Of a DNA stretch of 64,000 nucleotides, positions 14,338 to 19,887 are shown piece by piece. Both the position numbers and the translations under genes were made by a program. This DNA comes from Hippea sp. KM1 (GTDB lineage: Bacteria > Campylobacterota_A > Desulfurellia > Desulfurellales > Hippeaceae). The notes beneath the pieces were generated by a model. It was not told the DNA's origin. It saw only the letters and a program-made list of their open reading frames with translations, and searched no databases. The stretch spans positions 966,001 through 1,030,000 of the forward strand of contig NZ_JAFP01000001.1 in NCBI RefSeq assembly GCF_000526195.1, written 5' to 3'. The first letter of the stretch is position 1, and the number at the start of each line of letters is the position of its first letter.

Positions 14338-14359
14338 GCCCCTCCTTTTTAGGAGGGGC
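14338..14359. terminator. Shared intrinsic terminator between convergent genes
   Basis: Perfect 8-bp stem GCCCCTCC (14338-14345) and GGAGGGGC (14352-14359) with a six-base loop. On the minus strand the stem is followed by TTTTTATTTA, a good U-tract; on the plus strand the tail is weaker (ATACCTTTTC). The stop codon of the minus-strand lipoprotein gene lies in the loop. Confidence 0.85.
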
Positions 14360-14921
14360 ATACCTTTTCAAGCCAATCAACAAGATCAACCAAAGACAGA
14401 TTCAAAAGCCTATTCAGAGACGATATGGCATCATCAAAGGAGTCTTTTTTTATTCTTATCCTTTTTTTGAATGTATGGAGATAGATTTTGCCGCTTACCT
14501 CATCCCTAAGCCTGAATTCAATATCACAAACGACAAAAGCCCCATCGGGCAAAAAAACAGGCTCAAAATCACGGATAACATAGCTTAGCCTGTAATCCGG
14601 CCTTAATATATCACCGCTTACAAATGCACCTGTGGCATTCAATATGCGCTCTATAGATGCCTTATACATCAAACAGACAGGCTCTATCCATCTTACATTG
14701 CCGTATCTGTTAAACTCAAACTCTCCCTTTTTGAAAAAGATAAAACTGCTATCGAAGGGCGGTGTGCAATCTATATCGGACACAGCGACTGTTTTTTTAT
14801 AGTTAGTGTGTTTTTTAGCAATGACGGGTTTTGGATTTAAGGCATACTCCTTTAGAGGCGGAAGCTTTGAAAAACTGCACCCCATAGCAAACAACAAAAC
14901 AACAAACACAAGCCTTTTCAT
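14349..14921 (-). CDS. Lipoprotein, ABC-transport auxiliary (PqiC-like) component
   Basis: 190 residues beginning MKRLVFVVLLFAMGCS, a lipoprotein signal peptide whose lipobox cysteine is Cys15. The mature part opens LPPLKEYALNPKP, which resembles the YxL start of the ABC_trans_aux/DUF330 family (PqiC, YajI-like), and continues with alternating beta strands. It follows the MlaD gene with a one-base overlap and ends the lipid-transport operon. Proteins of this kind sit in the outer membrane and are thought to accept lipids from MCE-protein channels. Assignment rests on position plus weak sequence resemblance. Confidence 0.72.
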   Translation of the reverse strand: MKRLVFVVLLFAMGCSFSKLPPLKEYALNPKPVIAKKHTNYKKTVAVSDIDCTPPFDSSFIFFKKGEFEFNRYGNVRWIEPVCLMYKASIERILNATGAFVSGDILRPDYRLSYVIRDFEPVFLPDGAFVVCDIEFRLRDEVSGKIYLHTFKKRIRIKKDSFDDAISSLNRLLNLSLVDLVDWLEKVCPS

Positions 14922-15766
14922 TATCTATTACCTTCCCTTCTTCCGTTTATCAGCAGGGATGGATTGTATCTAAGCTCATCTATCAGCTGACGGGTATCAT
15001 CAATCAACCTTTTGAGCTTCTTTATGGCATAATAGCCCTCAACAAGAGTGCCACCCCTGAATTCATCTATCGTTCTATTTGAGGTATCTATGAGCCTGCC
15101 CGCAGAAACAGTCAGATTATCCAGCTTAACGATAACCCCCCTAAAGAGCCTTACATCCTCCTCAAGCCCACTCATTAGCCTATTTGTGTGTTTTGCAGCC
15201 TCTGCTATGTTGTGGGCTGCGTTATTGGAGTTTTTAATGAGACTTTGGAAGTTGGAGATGGTCGAGTTATCCATAAGCCTATCAATGCTTTCTGCCACCC
15301 TGTTTATCGAATCTAAAGCATCCATTACTACATCGGTCAGCTGCTCAATCTTTGAAGGAATAGACGGTATTGTAGGATAGGGCGTATCGGGTTTAAAGGG
15401 CAACCTGGGTGGGTTCTTTTCAAAAAACAGGTTAATGTATGATATGCCGGTTAAACCGTTTGAGGAGATCTGGGCAACGGTGTTTCCATCCACTGGAAGG
15501 TTCTTATCAACGAGTATGTTTATTCTAAAAAAATCGGGGTGCTTCTTCTCTATCTCTATGGATTCAACCTTGCCAACCGAAAAACCCTTATATCTAACAT
15601 CGGAGTCGGTATGCAATCCCGAGATGTTTGAATTTGTATATACAACGCACCGCTTGTAATTGCTATAGCCACTTCCGCCAAGCAGCCATAGAACTATACC
15701 GACACCCACAACACCAAAAACAACGACAAATATACCAACCAACGCATAATTTACCTTTGGTTCCAT
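14921..15766 (-). CDS. mlaD: MlaD/MCE-domain lipid-transport protein
   Basis: 281 residues. One N-terminal membrane anchor (about residues 8-30, ALVGIFVVVFGVVGVGIVLW) is followed by a single MCE domain to about residue 120 (GLHTDSDVRYKGFSVGKVESI, VDGNTVAQISSNGLTGISYI). A long helical tail with heptad repeats then runs to the end (SIDRLMDNSTISNFQSL, LIDDTRQLIDELRY). MCE proteins form hexameric rings or tunnels in the periplasm for phospholipid movement between membranes; the helical tail could extend the tunnel. It overlaps mlaF by 16 bp and lies directly after the permease and ATPase genes. Confidence 0.93.
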   Translation of the reverse strand: MEPKVNYALVGIFVVVFGVVGVGIVLWLLGGSGYSNYKRCVVYTNSNISGLHTDSDVRYKGFSVGKVESIEIEKKHPDFFRINILVDKNLPVDGNTVAQISSNGLTGISYINLFFEKNPPRLPFKPDTPYPTIPSIPSKIEQLTDVVMDALDSINRVAESIDRLMDNSTISNFQSLIKNSNNAAHNIAEAAKHTNRLMSGLEEDVRLFRGVIVKLDNLTVSAGRLIDTSNRTIDEFRGGTLVEGYYAIKKLKRLIDDTRQLIDELRYNPSLLINGRREGNR

Positions 15767-16518
15767 TGCTCAAACTTCCTTCCCCTTTGACCAAAGAATA
15801 TCCTTTTAAGCCATTCATCGTCAATCCCTTTTATCTTTTCAGGCTCACCCTCGGCAATCACCGTTTTATCCCTAACAACGCAGGCTTTTGTGGCTATACC
15901 AAAAAAGCTATCCAAATCGTGCGTTATCATAATCACCGTTATGCCCAATATCTCATTGAGCTTCTTTATTGTAATATCAAAATCATCCGCACTTGCAGGA
16001 TCCAGGCCACTTGTGGGCTCATCCAAAAAGATAATATCAGGGTCCAGCGCCAAAGCCCTTGCAAGCGCAGCCTTCTTCCTCATACCGCCAGAGAGCTCAT
16101 AGGGATAGAGAAAATAGACATCATCGTCCAGCCCAACCAGGGATAGCTTAAACCGAACAATATCATCTATAACACCCTGCGGCAGTTTTGTATTCTCTTT
16201 AAGTGGAACAGCTATGTTTTCGCCCACGCTTAAGGATGTAAACAGGCTTGCAGCCTGAAACATGACGCCATAGGTCTTCTTTATCCGATTCCTTTCATCC
16301 TCATCTGCACTGTTTAAATCAACACCGTTTACAACTATCCTGCCCCTTGAGGGCTGAAGCATCAATATAGACCTCATAAGGGTTGTCTTACCCGAACCGC
16401 TTTTGCCGATAATCGCATAGATATCGCCCTTTTTTACATTTATGTTGACATTCTTTAATACAACCTTATCGCCAAAACTGACCGTGAGGTCTCTAACCTC
16501 TATTATATTCCCATCCAT
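15751..16518 (-). CDS. mlaF: MlaF-type ABC transporter ATPase
   Basis: 255 residues, complete ABC ATPase: Walker A GKSGSGKTTLM near residue 38, Q-loop region MFQAASLFTSLSVGEN, signature LSGGMRKKAALARAL near 143, and Walker B DIIFLDEPTSGLDPASA with the catalytic Glu, then the H-loop MITHDLDS. The SGGM signature and the C-terminal segment match the Mkl/MlaF subgroup that powers MCE systems. It overlaps both the permease gene (16 bp) and mlaD (16 bp), so the three products are probably made in fixed ratio. Confidence 0.95.
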   Translation of the reverse strand: MDGNIIEVRDLTVSFGDKVVLKNVNINVKKGDIYAIIGKSGSGKTTLMRSILMLQPSRGRIVVNGVDLNSADEDERNRIKKTYGVMFQAASLFTSLSVGENIAVPLKENTKLPQGVIDDIVRFKLSLVGLDDDVYFLYPYELSGGMRKKAALARALALDPDIIFLDEPTSGLDPASADDFDITIKKLNEILGITVIMITHDLDSFFGIATKACVVRDKTVIAEGEPEKIKGIDDEWLKRIFFGQRGRKFEQWNQR

Positions 16519-17549
16519 CTAAACAAAACAGAGAACACCGCATCGGCTATTATAACGCCAAATATGCAATCAACAACGCTGATTGTTATGCTCTTTCCGA
16601 TGCTTTCCACATTCCTTTTAGTTTGAAACCCTTTAAAGGCGCCTATGGTGGCAATCAAAAACGCAAAAGCAGGGGCTTTAAGTATGCCCGATAGGAATGT
16701 CTTTATGCCTATAGCATGATGAAGCCTTAGGATAAAATCCCTCGGTGTTATACCCAGAGACAGATGCGCCACCAACATCCCGCCCAACACCCCCATAACA
16801 TCGGCCAATACAATTAGCAGAGGCACAGAGATAAGCATGGATATAATTTTAGGAAAAACCAATATGTCGTAAGGGTTAACACCCATCGTCTTTATGACAT
16901 CCACCTCTTCTGTCACCTTCATTATGCCGATCTGGGCGGTATAGGAGCTACTGCTTCGCCCTGCAAGCAGGATTGCCACAATCAAAGGCCCTAACTCCCT
17001 CAAAACCGATATGCTGACAAGGTCAACGACAAATATATTTGCCCCAAACTGCTTAAGCCTGACCGAACCGTGATAGGCAATAACAGCCCCTATCAGAAAC
17101 GATATGGTTGCCAATATGGGCATGGCATTAAACCCCATTATCTCTATATCGTTCAGTGCAGCCTTTAATCTAAACCTCTTTGGGTGAAAAAAACCCAAAA
17201 AACCCACAAAGATCTCGCCCAAAAACGACAGAAAGGCATAGAATTCAGAAAGCCTCTGCAAGAAACCCTCTCCCAGGCGGTAAAAGAAGCCGTATTTCTT
17301 ATGCTCAAAGTGCTGCCTGGGTTTGTGGGATGAGACTATATCCAAAAGCCGCCTGCCCTTATCATTAAGAACAAGCTCAACATCCAGGGAGGATACAAAA
17401 ACAATGCAGCTTGTATCGATTTTATCTATCCGGGAAAGGTCAATAACATCGGGATTGCATCTTTCAACGGCCTTAATAAAATCTGAAAGGTTTTGATAGG
17501 TCAGGCTGCCCTTTGCGATTAGCCTTCTATTTGCGCACTCTATATGCAT
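16503..17549 (-). CDS. mlaE: MlaE-type permease with N-terminal STAS-like domain
   Basis: 348 residues. Residues 1-75 look like a STAS domain (DLSRIDKIDTSCIVFVSSL), comparable to the separate MlaB subunit of E. coli. From about residue 90 the MlaE/TIGR00056 permease follows: IMGFNAMPILATISFLIGAV, VSISVLRELGPLIVAILLAG, and PYDILVFPKIISMLISVPL. Fusing the STAS part to the permease explains the absence of a separate mlaB. The start overlaps the end of the EamA gene by 23 bp, an unusually long overlap. No gene for the periplasmic carrier MlaC is found. Confidence 0.93.
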   Translation of the reverse strand: MHIECANRRLIAKGSLTYQNLSDFIKAVERCNPDVIDLSRIDKIDTSCIVFVSSLDVELVLNDKGRRLLDIVSSHKPRQHFEHKKYGFFYRLGEGFLQRLSEFYAFLSFLGEIFVGFLGFFHPKRFRLKAALNDIEIMGFNAMPILATISFLIGAVIAYHGSVRLKQFGANIFVVDLVSISVLRELGPLIVAILLAGRSSSSYTAQIGIMKVTEEVDVIKTMGVNPYDILVFPKIISMLISVPLLIVLADVMGVLGGMLVAHLSLGITPRDFILRLHHAIGIKTFLSGILKAPAFAFLIATIGAFKGFQTKRNVESIGKSITISVVDCIFGVIIADAVFSVLFRWMGI

Positions 17550-18423
17550 TGTGAGCCCTCTTGTTGGTCATGATGACGCCTGTTATAACCAAAAGCCCGC
17601 CGAGTAATTCATACAAAGACAACCTCTCATTCAAAAGGAGCACAGATGTGATTACACCAAAGACAGGCACCAGGTTCACAAACACGCTGGCCCTGCTTGC
17701 CCCGATCTCGGCAATCCCTTTATACCAAGCGCTGAAGGCAAAGACCGTTGAAAACAGCACCATATAAGCCAGGCTGCCCCACGCCTTCAAAGGATAGCTC
17801 ATTTGAGGATTGCACTTAAACAAAGCAAGGGGCAGAAACATCAAGGCCCCTAAGAAACTGACCAGACAGACCGCCTCAGATGTTGTAAGCTCCTTTGAGC
17901 TCCTCTTTGTTATAACCGTATAGATCGCCCACATGGTCGTGGCAAAAAGCATCAAAAGATCACCGGCGTTGAAATCCATTCTAAGCAGAATCCCCAAATT
18001 GCCTTTTGAGACGATAAACACTATACCCAAAAACGACAGCACAATACCCAAAACACCCAAAGCCGTTAACCTTTCCTTGAGCACAAACCACGCTATTATG
18101 GCTGTTATTATGGGATTTGCCCCAGAGATCAACGATACATCGGAGGCCTTGGCAAACCTAAGGGCATAGAGAAAGAAAACGCCATATAGGAATATGCCGC
18201 TTAGGGCCATGAGAATAAGAACCCTTAGGTTTCTCCTCAACTTTTCAAATAAGACGGCAGGATTAAGCCTAAAAAGGGCAGCAAATAGAACGGAAACCAA
18301 CAGAAACCGTATGAATGCAAAGCAGAAAGGGTGGATGTACTCCACCCCTATTTTTGCAATGGGAAACCCCACTCCCCAGAAGCAGGTCGCTGCTATAAGC
18401 AGCAGATAGGTTCTATGCTTCAT
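17527..18423 (-). CDS. EamA/DMT-family transporter
   Basis: 298 residues with about ten hydrophobic helices arranged as two EamA repeats. Repeat one runs from TCFWGVGFPIAKIGVEYIHP to GIVFIVSKGN, and repeat two from GDLLMLFATTMWAIYTVITK to LLVITGVIMTNKR. DMT transporters usually export amino acids, nucleobases or drugs; sequence does not show which. It starts 5 bp after the roadblock gene and overlaps mlaE, so it belongs to the same transcription unit as the lipid transporter, perhaps by chance of compaction. Confidence 0.9.
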   Translation of the reverse strand: MKHRTYLLLIAATCFWGVGFPIAKIGVEYIHPFCFAFIRFLLVSVLFAALFRLNPAVLFEKLRRNLRVLILMALSGIFLYGVFFLYALRFAKASDVSLISGANPIITAIIAWFVLKERLTALGVLGIVLSFLGIVFIVSKGNLGILLRMDFNAGDLLMLFATTMWAIYTVITKRSSKELTTSEAVCLVSFLGALMFLPLALFKCNPQMSYPLKAWGSLAYMVLFSTVFAFSAWYKGIAEIGASRASVFVNLVPVFGVITSVLLLNERLSLYELLGGLLVITGVIMTNKRAHNAYRVRK

Positions 18424-18428
18424 ATGGC

Positions 18429-18791
18429 CTAAAAGGCCGATTTTATCTTCTCTGCCGCCGTCTTTATCTCCATATACAGAAGACCTAACTTGACCTTATC
18501 GTCTGTAATTACCATCAAAACGGCCTCTTCCCCTGCTGAGGTAATAACGATATAGCCCTTATCCCCCCTGATGGTAACCTGCTGCGGCACGCCCTTTTCC
18601 AACTCCTCAACGGCCCTTTCCGATAAGGACAGGAGTGCTGCAGACATAGCAGAGACCCTATCCTCGTCCATATCGCCGGGCAGATAGCTGCTGATCATCA
18701 ATCCGTCCGATGTAACCAAAGCGGCGCCCTCAATACTCTGCGTTCCACCAACCAACTCTTGAAGCGTTTTGTTTATAAGCTCCTCTTTCAT
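18429..18791 (-). CDS. Roadblock/LC7-domain protein
   Basis: 120 residues forming one Roadblock/LC7 domain: IEGAALVTSDGLMISSYLPG, then the MSAALLSLSERAVEEL helix and the strands QVTIRGDKGYIVITSAG and EEAVLMVITDD. In bacteria such proteins (MglB-like) act as dimeric partners or activators of small Ras-like GTPases. No MglA-type GTPase is encoded nearby, so a partner elsewhere or a homodimeric scaffold role is possible. AGGGAGGT precedes ATG 18791, and a promoter candidate lies in the 67-bp gap to the next gene. Confidence 0.9.
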   Translation of the reverse strand: MKEELINKTLQELVGGTQSIEGAALVTSDGLMISSYLPGDMDEDRVSAMSAALLSLSERAVEELEKGVPQQVTIRGDKGYIVITSAGEEAVLMVITDDKVKLGLLYMEIKTAAEKIKSAF

Positions 18792-18858: not shown

Positions 18859-19887
18859 TTACAGCTTAAATCCTATCCTCAAGGCTCCCCAATGCTTACC
18901 GCTTAATTTTACTTCGGACGAAATGTCAAACATTAAAACGCCTACATCACGAGGATAGGGTTGAAGGATGTATTTTCTGGTATTTCTTGCTGCTGTTAGA
19001 CCTGTAAAGTCGTTGAATATCCTCATGGAGCGGTTGCCCAAAAGATCCTTCTTATAATCGCCGGTTAAGGGTTTGTCGTATTTGGAGTTGTGCGAGGGCA
19101 GATAACCGTTATCATCAACCAATACAACAAACACAAATTTCCTGTGTTTTTCGAGTATCTCATCCTCTATGGGTTGTATATACTTCTTTGCAAAGTCCGT
19201 AAATTTGGTTCTGTATTTTTGAGGGTTGGTATTGGGGACCTCTATATAGTTCCTATCCCACAGATCCTCCTCTGTTATATCACCGCTTTCGATGGCCTTT
19301 TTAAACGCATCCTCAATCTTTGCAACACCCTCCTCCAACAGTTTCACTATGCTCAAGAAGTCGTTATCATCCACCAGGTCAAACTCTATAATATCAAAAT
19401 CGCCTTCCCTTTTCATGTATGAGCCGTCCGGCTGTTTAATCATATTGACGCTTTTGTAAAAAAAGCCGTTTTTTAATACCATATCTAAATATACGCTAAA
19501 AAGCACCGGATATGGACAGATGGTTGTTCCCAACAAGGCACCGCCCACACCGGTGGGGCAATACATGCACTTATCCTTATGCACCTTAAAGATTATATGC
19601 TTATCGTCCCCTTCGATCTCATACCCATCGGCAAAGAACATAAACTCGTTTAGGTCATCAAGCAACTCCTTATAGAGCTGGGTATTTAGCTGCCTGCCGT
19701 CTATGAACGGAAAAGTGCCCATTTGCATCTTGTGTCTTACAAGCCTCTGAGAGGCCGTCTTCATAGAAGGAACCAACATGGCCTTGCTCATTATGCCCAA
19801 ATCGAATGTGGCACCCATGGTGCTTGCCCACAAAAGATGAGCCCCGTCGAGCTTTTTAAGCCTCTCCTGTTTATCCTTCTCACTCAT
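18859..19887 (-). CDS. Soluble Cache-like sensor protein of unknown function
   Basis: 342 residues, no signal peptide or membrane helix. The C-terminal third (about 235-340) reads VVLVDDNGYLPSHNSKY, PLTGDYKKDLLGNRSMRIFN, TGLTAARNTRKYILQPYPRD and KHWGALRIGF. That pattern closely resembles the cytoplasmic ligand domain found before the signalling domain of some methyl-accepting proteins, but here no signalling domain follows. The N-terminal half (LLWASTMGATFDLGIMSKAM onward) carries a cysteine cluster, KCMYCPTGVGGALLGTTICP, that might bind a metal or heme; I do not recognise it. The start is ATG 19887 with AGGGGG six bases upstream. It has its own strong promoter and precedes the roadblock gene by 67 bp. 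Confidence 0.8.
   Translation of the reverse strand: MSEKDKQERLKKLDGAHLLWASTMGATFDLGIMSKAMLVPSMKTASQRLVRHKMQMGTFPFIDGRQLNTQLYKELLDDLNEFMFFADGYEIEGDDKHIIFKVHKDKCMYCPTGVGGALLGTTICPYPVLFSVYLDMVLKNGFFYKSVNMIKQPDGSYMKREGDFDIIEFDLVDDNDFLSIVKLLEEGVAKIEDAFKKAIESGDITEEDLWDRNYIEVPNTNPQKYRTKFTDFAKKYIQPIEDEILEKHRKFVFVVLVDDNGYLPSHNSKYDKPLTGDYKKDLLGNRSMRIFNDFTGLTAARNTRKYILQPYPRDVGVLMFDISSEVKLSGKHWGALRIGFKL

Follow-up and report, generated by a model that had tools for sequence, protein, structure and literature searches.

The window analysed here is the whole stretch of 64,000 nucleotides from Hippea sp. KM1 (contig NZ_JAFP01000001.1, positions 966,001 to 1,030,000 of the forward strand), whose genome is a single contig of 1.74 Mb. 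It carries an open reading frame of 342 codons for a two-domain protein that we call NC, followed 67 nt downstream by the gene of a roadblock/LC7 protein, as the initial annotation had stated (Table 1). The NC reading frame is genuine, because its full-length identity to relatives (60-86% within its own family, f1, and about 53% with the sister family f2) far exceeds chance. Directly 5' of its ATG stands the Shine-Dalgarno-like sequence AGGGGGTG, a strong ribosome site. Sixteen further genomes have an orthologue that spans both domains; two of these orthologues are cut off by contig ends and one enters an assembly gap. The closest relatives with named records come from Hippea, Desulfurellaceae and Desulfurellales metagenome genomes. 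Throughout, f1 denotes the family of the window genome, f2 another family of the same order, and f3 and f4 other families of the same class. The gap of about 100 nt upstream of NC leaves room for a promoter; the promoter of its own with which the gene had been credited found no support, the 6 promoter-like sites there comparing with 4.2 ± 1.9 expected.

Table 1. Features of the NC locus; positions are counted from the first letter of the window.
Feature	Position	Strand	Basis
Putative two-domain soluble sensor NC, 342 aa	18859..19887	-	ORF; orthologues 53-86% identical in 16 other genomes
N-terminal V4R/TRAPP-like domain (predicted), residues 1-175	19363..19887	-	AF2 model, VIA-align, hhalign
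Cys107-x-x-Cys110 motif of NC	19558..19569	-	Invariant in 17/17 and 10/10 more diverse rows
Cys124 of NC	19516..19518	-	hhalign partner is the V4R cysteine preceding the last helix
Asp165 of NC	19393..19395	-	Relatives have their fourth cysteine here
C-terminal Cache/PDC-fold domain, residues 176-342	18862..19362	-	VIA-align Z 11.2; sequence kin at MCP C-termini
Roadblock/LC7 protein, 120 aa, conserved neighbour	18429..18791	-	PF03259, E 6.3e-21

NC has no transmembrane segment, its top 19-residue Kyte-Doolittle window reaching 1.46 against the usual cut-off of 1.6 for a membrane segment, and the whole protein matches no Pfam, NCBIfam or PADLOC entry, signalling domains included. The lack of a membrane helix and of a signalling domain, both first read from the letters alone, was thus borne out, and the search for an enzyme family that would cover the whole protein returned none. 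A role in a defence system was rejected, as PADLOC gave no match. Searches of PDB sequences with the NC protein and two profiles produced chance-level matches only. The CxxC plus third cysteine noted earlier in the N-terminal half are Cys107, Cys110 and Cys124, the sole cysteines of the protein.

The AF2 model of whole NC has a mean pLDDT of 77, and its C-terminal half has a Cache/PDC fold. With VIA-align this half (residues 168-342) superposes on the WalK/YycG sensor (5is1) with a Z of 11.2 and an rmsd of 3.4 Å over 128 residues, and Tlp3, PctC and KinD-type sensor domains give similar values; the Cache models of Pfam do not match NC up to E 10. The domain (175-342) makes up half of NC and not its C-terminal third, as had been thought. 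Two chemoreceptors (MCPs) encoded in the window genome end in a stretch that matches these residues at 65% and 56% identity. Both MCPs have membrane segments near the N-terminus only, followed by the MCP signalling domain and then by the Cache-like domain, which is cytoplasmic because the membrane segments all lie N-terminal to it. The two receptor domains are encoded at positions 1171253-1171756 and 1449192-1449674 of the genome contig, and no Pfam model covers them. In all 23 MCP rows that we collected the match stops at most 6 residues from the end of the open frame. The chemoreceptor kinship that had been proposed for this half is correct as far as MCPs go, but the kin are cytoplasmic C-terminal domains rather than the usual periplasmic kind, and together with the missing membrane segment this agrees with the cytosolic sensor first suggested. 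Cache sensors are usually extracellular and lie between two membrane helices, whereas NC is cytosolic and has neither flanking helices nor a fused output; NC illustrates how a Cache domain can act intracellularly. Intracellular Cache families exist, as the portion of PMC4822843 available to us describes, and our literature search found no direct description of cytoplasmic Cache domains at receptor C-termini. Outside the class the Cache-like domain occurs in 15 plasmid records (Salinivibrio, Azospirillum, Vibrio and others), where the annotation at the match is a methyl-accepting chemotaxis protein in eight, no listed gene in five and wanting altogether in two unannotated records.

From an evolutionary point of view the Cache half and the MCP tails form two separate sets. 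In a tree of 43 Cache-like domains one branch (100/97) splits the 17 NC rows from the 23 MCP rows, and this split is recovered in 100% of 200 bootstrap trees; three fragment rows are ungrouped. The fused form has a single origin in this tree, and the two-domain protein is most simply explained by one fusion event with vertical inheritance thereafter. The kinship of the Cache halves suggests another role for NC, that of a chemotaxis accessory which shares a Cache ligand with the MCPs and buffers it, delivers it or joins the receptor array, with the roadblock gene an incidental neighbour. The close identity to two receptor tails of the same genome fits such a role, as does the presence of at least one further Cache-domain match in 16 of the 17 NC genomes (the exception being an incomplete genome). 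However, NC matches no chemotaxis-domain family, its AF2 model has no long coiled coil, the NC Cache branch stands apart from that of the MCPs, and the roadblock gene is the neighbour kept across the order in the loci that we read. We consider this role improbable.

The fold search with whole NC was swamped by the Cache half and the N-terminal half was therefore predicted alone. The resulting model has a mean pLDDT of 76.7, falling below 50 at residues 28-32 and at residues 114-120 in the cysteine-bearing loop, which is poorly modelled; the predicted order is four helices, two strands, helices and three strands. This half had been described as unrecognised. That holds for the model libraries, since neither the N-terminal domain of NC (hereafter N-domain) nor its stand-alone relatives match any Pfam or NCBIfam model, and the domain defines a family that has no library model; by predicted structure and by profile it is nevertheless V4R/TRAPP-like. 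Foldseek gave weak matches to the model (best E 0.014), and among the 50 listed, 38 were H-NOX, TRAPP or BcsD and 12 were designed or unrelated proteins. When the Foldseek candidates were aligned with VIA-align, all 50 listed were BcsD, TRAPP subunits (among which we count an entry titled only "Mutant transport protein", presumably TRAPP), soluble guanylate cyclase/H-NOX, PoxR/MopR or YslB. The Z values were 8.6 for BcsD (7zzy), 8.0 for Bet3-Trs33, 7.5 for soluble guanylate cyclase and PoxR and 7.2 for YslB, where the program warns that a Z below 8 may reflect a common arrangement. The uniformity of this list is the stronger point and outweighs the modest Z values in suggesting a V4R/TRAPP-type fold for the predicted domain.

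Profile comparison pointed the same way. With hhalign, a 10-row N-domain profile and a 9-row V4R profile aligned over 117 collinear columns with a score of 33.8 (P 1.3e-4, probability 53%), and the narrower N-domain family alignment gave a probability of 10%. As controls, the reversed V4R profile scored 15.0, ten unrelated real alignments scored 8.6-19.3, and 150 column-shuffles reached 20.2 at most, none of the 150 attaining 33.8. The alignment pairs the V4R cysteines that precede the last helix and lie in the last strand with their equivalents in the N-domain. Homology of the N-terminal half to V4R is supported but not proven. The V4R model PF02830 itself was tested and matches neither NC, even at E 10, nor the stand-alone N-domains, and NC is therefore set outside that family. 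V4R proteins (DmpR/PoxR/MopR and the methanogen MsvR) have in common with the N-domain the predicted fold and the collinear profile match; they differ in the Glu-x-x-Cys part of their zinc site, which is absent from NC, whereas NC has an earlier CxxC and the Cache fusion. The TRAPP core subunits (Bet3/TRAPPC3) resemble the N-domain in predicted fold (Z 7-8) with no sequence match, and the case has been made that the Bet3 subunit of TRAPP descends from prokaryotic V4R (PMC2253512). BcsD structures being the top matches of the model, NC could also be an enzyme or carrier that uses a V4R-type pocket, for example like BcsD, and not a sensor at all. This seems very unlikely to us, for NC matches no enzyme family, and the Cache fusion and the linkage to regulatory genes point to regulation.

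With residues 1-178 as query we retrieved the NC orthologues of f1 and f2 and one stand-alone relative in f3, and a profile search of 386 genomes placed the N-domain in 23, of which three lie outside the class. A later profile found it in 5 of 136 genomes of one out-of-class phylum (one a short match with a stop) and in one of the two genomes in the phylum of another out-of-class carrier. The N-domain occurs alone in four other lineages and is a stand-alone family, spread wider than the fused form; no second copy was found in the window genome. The stand-alone gene in f3 is flanked by apparent genes for an M23-type peptidase and a YihY-like membrane protein (named by eye).

The roadblock gene is the conserved neighbour of NC. 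It adjoins NC in 13 of the 17 NC genomes, namely all nine of the same genus, the one genome of genus g5 and all three of f2. The intergenic gaps within the genus are 66-73 nt in the eight genomes measured. In f2 the order is flipped, with the roadblock gene first and NC following after 10-11 nt; 14 other window genes were looked for in the 17-kb stretches around NC in that family, and not one turned up. The roadblock gene alone was kept through this rearrangement, which argues for a functional link with NC. The remaining four NC genomes (genera g3 and g4) have no adjacent roadblock gene, and a search of one, which is 88% complete, found none at all. In both genera NC precedes what looks by eye like a molybdopterin oxidoreductase operon, of polysulfide-reductase-like kind.

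The linkage extends, more sparsely, to relatives of the N-domain. A stand-alone N-domain adjoins a roadblock gene in one of ten genomes: in G068, which belongs to another phylum, it lies directly 3' of the roadblock gene and before a DUF4388 response regulator. A roadblock gene is present in 22 of the 23 genomes with an N-domain and in 108 of the 363 without one (386-genome set), a weak co-occurrence because the genomes are related and the out-of-class part consists of three lineages, all with a roadblock gene. By eye, V4R and roadblock genes are neighbours within about 1 kb in at least four genomes (G012, G020, G021 and G287). In the unrelated genome G287 (L179:84-1221) a V4R gene with a CxxC runs straight into a roadblock gene, and the g5 genome has NC followed by a roadblock and then a V4R-like gene. 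We do not argue for a simple replacement of V4R by NC, as g5 carries both side by side and the window genome has a distant V4R-like gene.

A Ras-like GTPase gene is the third member of this company. In f2 it is convergent with NC on the side opposite the roadblock gene. The window genome has an orthologue of it (63% identity), which lies about 118 kb from NC behind the same kind of upstream gene; the idea that the protein upstream of the GTPase is PATAN/DUF4388-like gained no support from Pfam. After the window-genome GTPase gene come thioredoxin-like and thioredoxin-reductase-like genes (L096:467-3408; names by eye). In f4 a compact cluster (L145:2231-5219) encodes the upstream protein, which has no family match, the GTPase, a weak roadblock protein, a roadblock protein and a true V4R protein (PF02830, E 1e-16); its GTPase and roadblock proteins are orthologues of those of the window genome at 46% and 44% identity, so that the V4R gene has there the same gene company as NC has elsewhere. 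This cluster may be a complete GTPase-V4R module. A cluster in f3 (L078:2194-5469) holds in a row an MglA-like GTPase, a 386-aa protein, a true V4R protein, a cysteine-rich 182-aa protein and the roadblock orthologue. Neither the 386-aa nor the 182-aa protein has a Pfam match, and a CheW-like assignment of the former has no support from Pfam.

The G3 motifs of these GTPases, read by eye, are ATPGQ, GTPGQ and TVPGQ and lack the usual Asp, a feature of MglA according to the sections of PMC4316618 accessible to us. Roadblock and MglA-like GTPase genes are linked in f4 and f2, and in the window genome both are present but about 118 kb apart. The combination of a Ras-like GTPase without the G3 Asp and a roadblock protein is that of the MglA/MglB polarity module and of the actinobacterial conservon; here a V4R-type sensor would be an extra partner. 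V4R does not occur in the accessible text of that small-GTPase survey (PMC4316618). The available part of PMC10933270 describes roadblock dimers as platforms for small GTPases and reports that the GTPase genes of the Asgard MK-D1 genome are generally not in operons with roadblock, longin or TRAPPC3 genes. The gene company of NC is thus like the partners of TRAPP, in that NC adjoins a roadblock gene and a Ras-like GTPase gene lies nearby in relatives. It differs in that the neighbour is a roadblock protein and not longins, and any GEF activity or membrane role like that of TRAPP would be hypothetical for NC.

The cysteines of the N-domain are strictly conserved. Cys107, Cys110 and Cys124, which have Pro and Gly near them, are invariant in all 17 rows and also in each of 10 more diverse rows. 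At position 165 the 12 f1 rows carry Asp, and all three f2 and all seven stand-alone rows carry Cys. Cys and Asp are usual zinc ligands. An analysis for metal or haem had been proposed at the outset. H-NOX proteins bind haem through a conserved proximal histidine, and the N-domain has no histidine in its invariant or nearly invariant columns; a haem reading was rejected, even with H-NOX structures among the fold matches, and because the family has no invariant histidine the cysteines suggest instead a V4R-type metal site or a thiol switch. The zinc site of the DmpR V4R domain comprises Cys151, Glu172, Cys177 and Cys185 (PMC7264223, in the excerpt available). Two of these four ligand positions are kept in the N-domain, at Cys124 and at the Cys or Asp of position 165, and the CxxC replaces the others. 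Such a motif is not foreign to V4R, because two V4R proteins, including the one in G287, also have a CxxC before the V4R cysteine. The TRAPPC3 of Thorarchaeota is reported to have a four-cysteine zinc site (PMC10933270), and PoxR, DmpR and this TRAPPC3 share a ligand-pocket fold that is usually dimeric and pinned by zinc, as far as the consulted parts of PMC7264223 and PMC10933270 go.

The same residues could serve a thiol redox sensor, in which the CxxC and the third cysteine are oxidised and reduced and report to the roadblock/GTPase switch while the Cache half provides a second input. Beyond the invariance of the cysteines, the methanogen V4R regulator MsvR binds DNA in a redox-sensitive manner via its cysteines (PMC3729527, in the part seen), and the MsvR model gives the V4R protein encoded in the f4 cluster a weak 46.5 bits, below its cut-off of 220. 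The thioredoxin-like and thioredoxin-reductase-like genes that follow the window-genome GTPase and the apparent molybdopterin oxidoreductase operon that follows NC in g3 and g4, all named by eye, would also fit. A plain disulphide switch nevertheless explains less well why two of the cysteine positions are zinc-ligand positions of V4R (DmpR, PMC7264223, same excerpt) and why the fourth is Cys or Asp, and we regard the redox sensor as rather unlikely.

The reading that we favour, and to which we would give an even chance of being right, is that NC is a cytosolic, metal-stabilised V4R-like and Cache sensor that regulates a roadblock/GTPase switch. Its N-terminal half would be a divergent domain of the V4R/TRAPP-Bet3 fold, probably dimerising and enclosing a hydrophobic cavity, pinned by a putative metal site made of Cys107, Cys110, Cys124 and Asp165. 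The Cache half and the C-terminal chemoreceptor tails would go back to a common ancestor, and the fusion of this half to the N-domain would have happened once. Because NC has no output domain it would act through a partner, most likely by binding the roadblock dimer encoded next door, and this binding would tune, in one direction or the other, the MglA-like GTPase whose gene lies about 118 kb away in the window genome. Signalling via the roadblock protein to the GTPase is what we infer from a predicted pocket fold, a second ligand domain, the lack of an output and an adjoining roadblock gene taken together.

A wider possibility, which we put forward tentatively and judge somewhat doubtful, is that the class has a TRAPP-like bacterial switch. 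In such a switch a roadblock dimer would be bound by subunits of the V4R/Bet3 fold, either NC or, in the sister families, true V4R proteins, and these subunits would respond to a hydrophobic or a metal/thiol signal by setting the nucleotide state of an MglA-like GTPase. If this were true the gene clusters would encode a bacterial counterpart of the Bet3-longin-Rab core, and the Cache fusion of NC would feed a second input into the same switch. The fold, the Cache domain and the roadblock protein are of known kinds. What seems new is the linkage of V4R-fold genes with roadblock and GTPase genes in bacteria: in the open-access literature, to which our search was confined, we found no paper that links V4R to roadblock proteins in bacteria and no account of a role for V4R-fold proteins beside bacterial GTPases. 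The one study found that covers V4R-type and roadblock proteins together concerns, in its available part, Asgard archaea (PMC10933270). The clusters of GTPase, roadblock and V4R-fold genes offer a small soluble system for direct tests of partnership.

On the 3' side of the roadblock gene, at window positions 14349-18423, an EamA transporter gene is accompanied by what appears to be a lipid transport operon of the Mla type (MlaE, MlaF and MlaD by eye); the genus retains this arrangement.
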